A DNA stretch of 16,173 nucleotides, from assembly GCA_028871775.1 (NCBI GenBank), contig JAGWMH010000013.1, positions 1-16,173 on the forward strand, given 5' to 3'. The translations under genes and the position numbers were made by a program. The notes under the pieces were generated by a model, which did not search any database, was not told the DNA's origin, and saw only the letters and a program-made list of their open reading frames with translations. Positions 11,004 through 12,114 of the stretch are shown piece after piece (the stretch's first letter is position 1; each line of letters begins with the position of its first letter). The stretch comes from Betaproteobacteria bacterium. GTDB taxonomy: Bacteria; Pseudomonadota; Gammaproteobacteria; Burkholderiales; Gallionellaceae.

Positions 11004-12014
11004 ATGCAGGAACTACAACAAATTCTTGACGAAGCGCTGAAGCAGTTTGCCGCGATTGATCAGGCGGCGGAGCTGGAGCAGGTCAAGGCGCGTTATCTCG
11101 GCAAGGAGGGCAGCCTGACCGGCCTGTTGAAGGGCTTGGGCAAGCTCTCTGCCGAGGAACGCCCGGCAGCCGGGGCGCGCATCAACCAGGTCAAGCAACA
11201 GATCGAGGCGGCGCTGCAAACGCGGCGCGATGCCATCCAGCAACAAGCCCTGCAAGCCAGGCTGGCGGCGGAAGCGCTGGACGTGACACTTCCCGGTCGA
11301 GGTTTGGGCGTGGGTGGATTGCACCCAGTGACGCGCACGCTGGAGCGCATCGAGACCCTGTTTCACTCTATCGGTTACGCCGTGGCGGAAGGCCCGGAGA
11401 TCGAAAGCGATTTCTATAACTTCACCGCGTTGAATATCCCGGAAGACCATCCGGCGCGGGCCATGCACGACACTTTCTATATCGATGAGCAGCACGTGCT
11501 GCGCACACACACCTCGCCGATCCAGATCCGCTACATGCAAGCACATCGGGAGAAATACAAGCATCTGGAGACCATGCCAGATATCCGCATCATCGCACCG
11601 GGGCGTGTTTATCGCGTCGATTCCGATGCCACCCATTCACCGATGTTCCATCAGGTGGAGGGGCTGTGGATAGGCGAGCGAGTGAGCTTCGCCGATCTCA
11701 AAGGGGTGATCGCCGATTTCCTCAAAAACTACTTTGAGACCGAAGACATGCAAGTGCGCTTCCGCCCCTCGTTCTTCCCGTTCACCGAACCGTCGGCTGA
11801 AATGGATATGAGCTGGAACGGCGGCTGGCTGGAGATCGGCGGCTGCGGCATGGTGCATCCGAACGTACTCAAACATGTCGGCATCGACAGCGAAAAATAC
11901 ATCGGCTTCGCTTTCGGCGTGGGCGTGGAGCGTCTGGCCATGCTGCGCTACGGCGTGAACGACCTCAGATTGTTCTTCGAAAATGATCTTCAATTCCTTA
12001 AGCAATTTGCATGA
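11004..12014 (+). CDS. pheS: Phenylalanine--tRNA ligase alpha subunit
   Basis: 336 residues, of the usual length. This is the catalytic subunit of the cytosolic alpha2beta2 class II synthetase. An N-terminal coiled coil (about 1-90) contacts tRNA. The catalytic core begins at [16 protein letters not shown] (97-112). Motif 2 is around [21 protein letters not shown] (200-220), the Phe pocket around SFFPFTEPS (256-264), and motif 3 is [13 protein letters not shown] (305-317). ATG 11004 is chosen as start; AGGAG is at 10989-10993, ten bases upstream. GTG 11001 (spacing seven) and GTG 10995 are possible. The last ten codons plus stop are repeated 100 bases downstream with synonymous changes only, so the 3' end may be a replacement. 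pheT follows after an unusually long 107-base gap. Confidence 0.96.
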
Positions 12015-12028
12015 TGAGCGGCTTATTG

Positions 12029-12090
12029 AGGATCATTTCAGTGGAGGCTCATGCGGCAAAGCCGCGTTATGCCGTAACTAAAATGACCTG
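12029..12090 (+). repeat. Small palindromic element between pheS and the displaced pheS end
   Basis: TCATTTCAGT (12033-12042) and ACTAAAATGA (12077-12086) form inverted arms with nine of ten pairs matching. The interior contains the stem GCGGC-AAA-GCCGC (12053-12065). GATCATTT (12031-12038) is also the exact inverse of AAATGATC at the pheS end (11981-11988). The element fills most of the 67 bases between the two copies of the pheS end and could be a small mobile or REP-like sequence; no known family was recognised. Confidence 0.5.
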
Positions 12091-12114
12091 CAATTCCTGA
12101 AACAATTCGCTTGA
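12082..12114 (+). pseudogene. Displaced second copy of the pheS 3' end
   Basis: Eleven codons ([10 protein letters not shown]-stop) repeat the pheS end at 11982-12014. The DNA is identical at 27 of 33 bases, and all six differences are third-position synonymous changes (GAT/GAC, CTT/CTG twice, AAG/AAA, TTT/TTC, GCA/GCT). A TAA (12079-12081) closes the frame directly upstream, so it is not translated as PheS. Its stop lies seven bases before the pheT ATG, which would be a normal pheS-pheT spacing. It is therefore probably the original pheS end. Confidence 0.85.

Follow-up and report, generated by a model that had tools for sequence, protein, structure and literature searches.

A dispersed structured repeat of about 100 bp at the pheS-pheT junction: a possible self-guided mobile element that replaces host gene ends

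Introduction

Integrative elements and prophages can replace the end of the gene into which they insert, so that the gene is restored, a native relic is left behind and tandem accretion can follow; such elements are kilobases long, carry an integrase and have a fixed target. Among much smaller sequences, the betaproteobacterial repeat BRE measures about 90 bp, with partial forms of 40-60 bp and tandem arrays (Hot et al. 2011, PMC3110155). BRE is mostly intergenic, with some copies at the ends of, or inside, open reading frames (ORFs), is not co-oriented with replication, and was described in 2011 without a mechanism, as far as the sections of that report used here extend (PMC3110155). In the IS200/IS605 elements, according to the extracts of two accounts (PMC8266576, PMC5934647), tetranucleotides 5′ of a hairpin choose the cut sites by base pairing; in IS608, as excerpted from the same accounts, an engineered 8-base extension of the guide redirects insertion, within limits set by the native structure (PMC5934647, PMC8266576). 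An insertion sequence that replaces inverted repeats is also described, in outline, in PMC5678879.

Here we analyse a window, by which we mean the whole stretch of 16,173 nucleotides under study, from a Gallionellaceae genome, in which pheS ends twice before pheT begins. An earlier note on this DNA had drawn attention to the two ends.

Results

The two pheS ends of the window

Copies A and B of the pheS 3′ end (Table 1) are offset by exactly 100 bp and agree at 27/33 bases; the six differences are all third-position and silent, and the same ten residues are encoded by both, so that direct comparison bears out what the earlier note had reported. Of all single changes in the last ten pheS codons 17.8% are silent, which gives p of about 3e-5 for six random changes that are all silent. 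The next-best match of copy A within the window reaches 18/33 on the same strand and 19/33 on the opposite strand. The likeness of A and B reaches leftward as far as AAAA (11980-11983 and 12080-12083), and the flanks, aligned locally, score 23, whereas the highest of 50 shuffles scores 11. A repeat-finding tool run on the window did not report the pair, which therefore rests on direct comparison. When base 11983 is joined to base 12084, as an empty site would read, the pheS end is intact. Nor does the duplication stand alone: positions 11984 to 12083 (100 bp), which take in copy A, form one unit of a structured repeat that is dispersed over this and other genomes. Further downstream, at about 12517-12567, pheT has an in-frame insert of some 16 residues (PLRQGFGQASTELRTG) that is absent from PheT of the near relative G003 and looks like a different repeat (TTCGGCAGGGCTTCGGACAGGCTTCGACTGAGCTCAGGACAGG).

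Table 1. Features of the pheS-pheT junction in the window, and gene frames adjoining other copies of the unit. The pheS start used is 11019; the ORF listing starts at 10995 (GTG).
Feature	Position or locus	Strand	Basis
pheS, ending in element-borne copy A	11019..12014	+	ORF list; NCBIfam TIGR00468, 351.7 bits (cut-off 237.45)
Left AAAA site, unit starts after it	11980..11983	+	sequence
Copy A, replacement pheS end (last ten codons and stop)	11982..12014	+	pheS locus comparison
100-bp unit: replacement pheS end, loop, guide arm, hairpin, right AAAA	11984..12083	+	empty-site reading; scattered occurrence; boundary
X, left target arm TGATCTTCAA	11984..11993	+	sequence
Guide arm X′TTT TTGAGGATCATTT, reverse complement of AAAX	12026..12038	+	permutation test; sequence
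Conserved core: TTTC, hairpin, CTAAAA	12036..12083	+	covariance model R1 (12024-12095, 62.4 bits); alignment A1
Right AAAA, unit end joined to target	12080..12083	+	sequence
Copy B, native pheS end relic	12082..12114	+	resembles single ends of element-free relatives
pheT, downstream neighbour	12122..14524	+	ORF list; position after pheS
3′ terminus of acetate-CoA ligase (acs)	L012		NCBIfam
3′ terminus of TypA	L085		NCBIfam, 755.5 bits against cut-off 757.3
3′ terminus of ornithine carbamoyltransferase (argF)	L082		NCBIfam
3′ terminus of DksA	L102		NCBIfam
3′ terminus of CcmE	L090		NCBIfam
3′ terminus of HisC	L097		NCBIfam
3′ terminus of DnaB C-terminal piece	L267		NCBIfam
5′ terminus of KsgA, element antisense	L002		NCBIfam
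5′ terminus of dTDP-glucose 4,6-dehydratase, element antisense	L323		NCBIfam
5′ terminus of NuoD, element antisense	L319		NCBIfam
5′ terminus of SelD, element antisense	L304		NCBIfam
5′ terminus of formyltransferase, element antisense	L326		NCBIfam, below cut-off
Inside PurL gene, open frame	L100		NCBIfam
Inside RND permease genes, open frame	L003, L256		NCBIfam, below cut-off
5′ termini of LplT, MurG, RuvC			recognised by eye only

Anatomy of the unit

The consensus of 112 copies reads AAAA/X - loop - X′TTTC RGYG NAG RCT MA - hairpin - NARCY AAAA/, where the slashes mark the two boundaries and X′ is the reverse complement of the target arm X; unit length is about 60-180 bp. TTTCRG and CYAAAA form imperfect inverted repeats whose outer arm varies by target, and the R of the first pairs with the Y of the second as G-C or A-T in 111/112 copies. 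In minimal copies, a one-base X and a three-base loop remain (AAAAC-NNN-GTTTC). An alignment of 55 copies reveals a conserved single-strand hairpin with unpaired positions near its end; the window junction folded alone is weak (z -1.83, with 13/200 shuffles as good).

Within the hairpin in alignment A1, a conserved GNA (columns 20-22) stands opposite another (columns 55-57), an arrangement in which single-stranded DNA or RNA can form sheared G-A pairs. Six loci (L044, L049, L053, L054, L058 and L063) have a variant core, often with GTTGCGG and a right-hand CCAAC replacing GTTTCGG and CCAAA, joined to a longer conserved upstream sequence, and in four or five of them the change of site is mirrored in the arm.

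Complementarity of the guide arm to its target

The guide arm is complementary to both sites. Guides match their own left site at 8.00/11 positions, compared with 5.97 for the guides of other copies, and their own right flank at 6.53/11 compared with 5.17, and in neither case did any of 1000 permutations reach the observed value; the 73 copies in this test, which remained from 112 after removal of those with similar left flanks, are not fully independent because some share a target gene in different species. Copies found with covariance model R1, which favour paired flanks, were excluded from these statistics.

RNAalifold, given 55 of the 112 copies (those with short cores that were not near-identical), paired the guide arm, unprompted, with the target past the right end. 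At the three pairs next to TTT/AAA, both partners have changed and still pair in 11, 27 and 21 of the 55 sequences. Over the whole structure 81.7% of cells are paired, against 69.2% in shuffles (0/500 as high) and 30-40% when the structure is slid, and the eight flank pairs alone are 55.7% paired, against 40.5% (0/500). The columns of TTTC, of parts of the core and of AAA(A) are invariant by construction, because the search patterns fix them; no such constraint was placed on the arms, on R against Y or on the inner stem. Two observations speak against a guided model: over 13 bases the guide arm of the window has one mismatch to A and three to B, and so fits A better than B; and minimal copies match their target at AAAA only.

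Replacement of the pheS end across relatives

The comparison of pheS-pheT junctions that the earlier note had proposed shows that single-copy pheS ends exist among relatives, and since copy B resembles the single ends of those relatives that have no element, B is the ancestral end, as had been supposed. An A-type end (GATCTTCA.TT..T.A..CA.TT..C.TAA and close forms) occurs in 9/80 named pheS loci. In six (L120, L123, L124, L128, L135 and L154) the unit and B are also present; L119 has kept A and B and lost the hairpin; and in L158 and L159 the A-type end runs directly into pheT, with a TAATG or ATGA overlap and with neither hairpin nor B, which suggests that a replaced end persists there as a scar after loss of the rest of the unit.

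Where A and B are both kept, a foreign end stands before a native one. A is nearly uniform among distant lineages and B follows each native type: the B of L120 and L123 (CAATTTAACTGATATG) is a native type seen in other genomes, and that of L154 (TTTTCCTGAG) is shared with its sister, L157. A tree of 81 pheS bodies, window included, requires ten changes for the ten A-type rows, seven of them forced by starred branches, and the A-type label is scattered to the same degree as in shuffles (mean 9.6). Over the 15 bases between -3 and +12 relative to the site, nine of the ten A-types agree with the others at 0.99 (L119 at 0.87), and upstream of the site A-type rows resemble their nearest native relative; L120 and L127, for instance, agree at 0.90-1.00 upstream and then at 0.80 and 0.74. 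Two cases stand against replacement at the site: L154 and its sister L157 are identical over the 15-base block, and L119 reads GAGAAT where AAAA would be expected.

Several proposals of the earlier note can be judged from these comparisons. That copy A is a foreign replacement end agrees with its being nearly unchanged in ten scattered pheS genes, and the silence of the differences is explained, as proposed, because A and B each evolved as a real pheS end in a different lineage, A nearly uniform and B following the native types. The replacement end and the native relic do have the geometry expected of an integrating element; neither an integrase nor a classical island was found to accompany the unit, and no integrase gene lies between the two pheS ends in the 100-bp unit of the window or in the spacers of 80 pheS loci. 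The notion of a minimal element also stands, with its size corrected from the intervening 67 bases to the 100 bp of the unit, which starts inside pheS after AAAA; and the unit is not confined to pheS, a gene not known to the note as an insertion site, but belongs to a large family with members at many genes.

In L123 and L128 the pheS-pheT spacer holds a second copy of the repeat, in reverse orientation and nested within the pheS unit. A larger insertion of foreign DNA between the two genes is present in G003 (L073 2600-3739 and L074 1-480), where small ORFs are seen along with one end of a transposase-like frame; two ends of the insertion are visible, on contigs that do not meet, and by eye neither contains any of the unit's parts.

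Copies at other genes

Units lie at many other gene termini. BLAST of the junction against its own genome, a check foreseen in the earlier note, gave weak matches at ksgA (L002, E 0.025) and an RND permease gene (L003, E 0.30), with the spacer alone shared; these two are further copies, likewise flanked by imperfect copies of host coding sequence. The frames adjoining copies, named by NCBIfam, are listed in Table 1. In a set of 53 deduplicated copies outside tandem arrays, the likeness of B to the sequence upstream exceeds the 99th percentile of controls 19 times (0.4 expected); the other 34 have no clear A/B repeat, which counts against the guided model proposed below. Outside the family, at 12 of 15 loci picked by eye from 26, A/B repeats span 30-70 bases at 84-98% identity, several ending at a start or stop codon; L306, L302 and L325 have none. 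In another family pheS was struck again, with that family's own local sequence (L307, 32 bases, 94%), and at other genes too the same core lies between the copies.

Distribution

Model R1 finds 13 copies in the window's own genome, where a 19-base pattern with up to three mismatches hits 8 places (L013, among them, is unconvincing) and the reversed pattern none. With up to two mismatches that pattern occurs in 78/150 genomes of the family, and four genomes have one control match each; a longer, strict pattern with AAAA on both sides occurs in 67/158 genomes and 10/15 genera, with no control match among those listed. Across the order, which we take to be the Burkholderiales of GTDB, model R1 (E up to 0.01) matches at least 115/399 genomes and at least 55/159 genera, about a dozen candidates at most having been scored in each genome; one chromosome, that of G302, holds 39 matches, and a class-wide sample of 369 genomes (E up to 0.001) holds two matching genomes besides our own. 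Tandem arrays with periods of roughly 70-110 bases are seen at L198, L206, L220, L224 and L254 and on C217 of G149. At the Rfam gathering score the window and ten copy-bearing loci match tRNAs only, and plasmids searched with the junction gave no match. Copies show no strand bias relative to replication, 49 running with it and 65 against it (p 0.16; from 150 listed matches in 125 clusters, 11 near the assumed terminus dropped, with the origin set at dnaA and the terminus assumed to be half-way).

An autonomous version was sought in 146 copies, up to 1.5 kb upstream of each, and no kilobase-long unit was seen: in 87 a left site or a match to B lies within 130 bases, and in the other 59 there is neither, although four of these have a match farther off, at 134-253 bases, three of the four in tandem arrays.

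Discussion

We propose, with a probability of roughly 0.55, that the window holds a non-autonomous mobile element of about 100 bp that integrates site-specifically by base pairing. The active form would be a folded single strand, of DNA or RNA, with its left cut at AAAA/X and its right cut after CYAAAA; the guide arm, matching both sites, would also select the target, and this pairing, to judge from the complementarity in the sequences, would direct integration, with a candidate enzyme acting on the unit in trans. The stretch from X to X′ would carry a copy of a host gene terminus, so that the element's copy A would restore the gene and the native terminus B would become a relic. Because X′ is fitted to the adjoining terminus, a unit born at one terminus would be aimed at the same terminus elsewhere, and the target gene would survive because the unit brings that terminus with it. 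The element would survive where its cargo restores the gene; selection would remove insertions that bring no such end, except those lying between genes or in frame. One possibility for the first writing of X′ is that a flank was copied by template switching at the palindrome. Such a mechanism would account for the location at gene ends, both orientations, the native relics, tandem accretion and the scars.

The alternative that survives best, although we consider it unlikely, is that the repeat inserted once or a few times per gene and that homologous recombination between species then spread the filled allele, the guide having no role in targeting and its complementarity arising by template switching at an imperfect palindrome. 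The homology of A and B would be sufficient for this, and pheS units are old enough for differences between genera; the copying of flanks into palindromes is a known route of mutation and would supply the complementarity of the guide. Had recombination spread the allele, one would expect the tracts to be longer and varied; in the ten A-type genes the foreign block instead starts close to the AAAA and the upstream sequence follows the sister; and some transposition would be needed anyway, because units lie at many unrelated genes.

As a sub-case of the base-pairing element that we favour, the unit could be of the IS200/IS605 or REP type and be moved in trans by a Y1 HUH transposase, which we regard as improbable. 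A folded hairpin with mismatches and a 5′ guide is how cut sites are chosen in IS200/IS605-type elements, in the extracts cited (PMC8266576, PMC5934647), and Y1 genes are common, being present in 122/158 genomes of the family. Their presence does not follow that of the repeat: none is listed for at least seven genomes that match the strict pattern (G002, G007, G067, G076, G145, G147 and G158), and 9/11 copy-rich genomes have them as against 7/12 copy-free genomes. Moreover, 0/30 Y1 loci carry the motif, by an expression that misses some true copies (it finds 5 copies in 80 pheS loci and misses L123 on the + strand, L135 and L154), and there is no replication-strand bias. A Y1 transposase is thus not supported as the partner of the repeat.

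An ordinary local duplication, with its first copy kept under selection, would fit the similarity of A and B, which outside the family reaches 98% in some pairs; we find it very improbable, as the pheS A is nearly uniform across distant lineages with B following the native type, the six differences are all silent, and the same core separates the copies at other genes. Least credible of all is a remnant of a large integrative element with an attachment site in pheS that has lost all but its ends, as might be imagined from the replacement end, the native relic and the foreign DNA of G003, given that the small unit is met again at many genes and in arrays of tandem copies, and that the upstream scan of 146 copies, with its 87 nearby matches, met no kilobase unit.

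It is possible, though we would put it below even odds, that these units form a new class: self-guided and gene-less, some 60-180 bases long, capturing a gene terminus together with a matching guide arm and homing, through pairing of DNA or RNA bases, into that terminus in other genomes, which it would replace harmlessly. With a guide written anew for every further target gene, such a unit would be naturally programmable. If this is true, the ends of housekeeping genes in many bacteria of the order have been replaced by a selfish element of 100 bases, and the scars of replaced ends can outlast the element, as in L158 and L159; harmless entry into essential genes would be explained; a repeat family so far described without a mechanism would have one; and nature would offer a system whose insertion site is set by a short arm, with the moving enzyme becoming a testable question. 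Within the literature searched, in which we found no paper on target-complementary arms or on gene-end replacement by such repeats, the combination of a target-matched guide arm with replacement of host gene ends appears to be new.

Among known systems, integrative elements and prophages resemble the repeat in that an element-borne end restores the gene, a native relic is left and accretion occurs in tandem, but here the units are about 60-180 bp, enter many genes and use both 5′ and 3′ termini. Rickettsia palindromic elements and other MITEs are likewise protein-less, about 100-150 bp long and in some cases in frame inside genes, but target-copied arms and replacement gene ends are not described for them in the portions of the account used (PMC10969869). 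REP sequences with their TnpA-REP (RAYT) transposases share, in the extracts cited (PMC3733652, PMC8266576), short single-strand hairpins, an occasional position at or in ORF ends and mobilisation in trans; they differ in that alignment A1 has, by eye, no conserved GTAG or CGTC tag columns, and in that Y1 genes do not track our repeat.

The closest analogue of the guide arm is the guide of the IS200/IS605 elements, as partly summarised in the sources above: there too a conserved hairpin has a nearby guide complementary to both sites, the likeness here extending to complementarity alone. The native guide is a tetranucleotide in those extracts, whereas the arm of the unit is longer and rewritten for each target, and the unit has one hairpin, no transposase gene, no replication-strand bias and a cargo of gene ends. 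Elements of that group have a Y1 gene within them or tracking them and an insertion bias related to replication; because Y1 genes do not track our repeat, Y1 loci lack the motif and strand bias is absent, we do not file it among them. With BRE it shares the size range, the tandem arrays, the copies at ORF ends and inside ORFs, and the lack of co-orientation with the replication fork, while hairpin anatomy, a guide arm, a target and gene-end replacement are not described for BRE in the sections of the report used here (PMC3110155). Judged by that description, the repeat is probably related to BRE and may belong to it.
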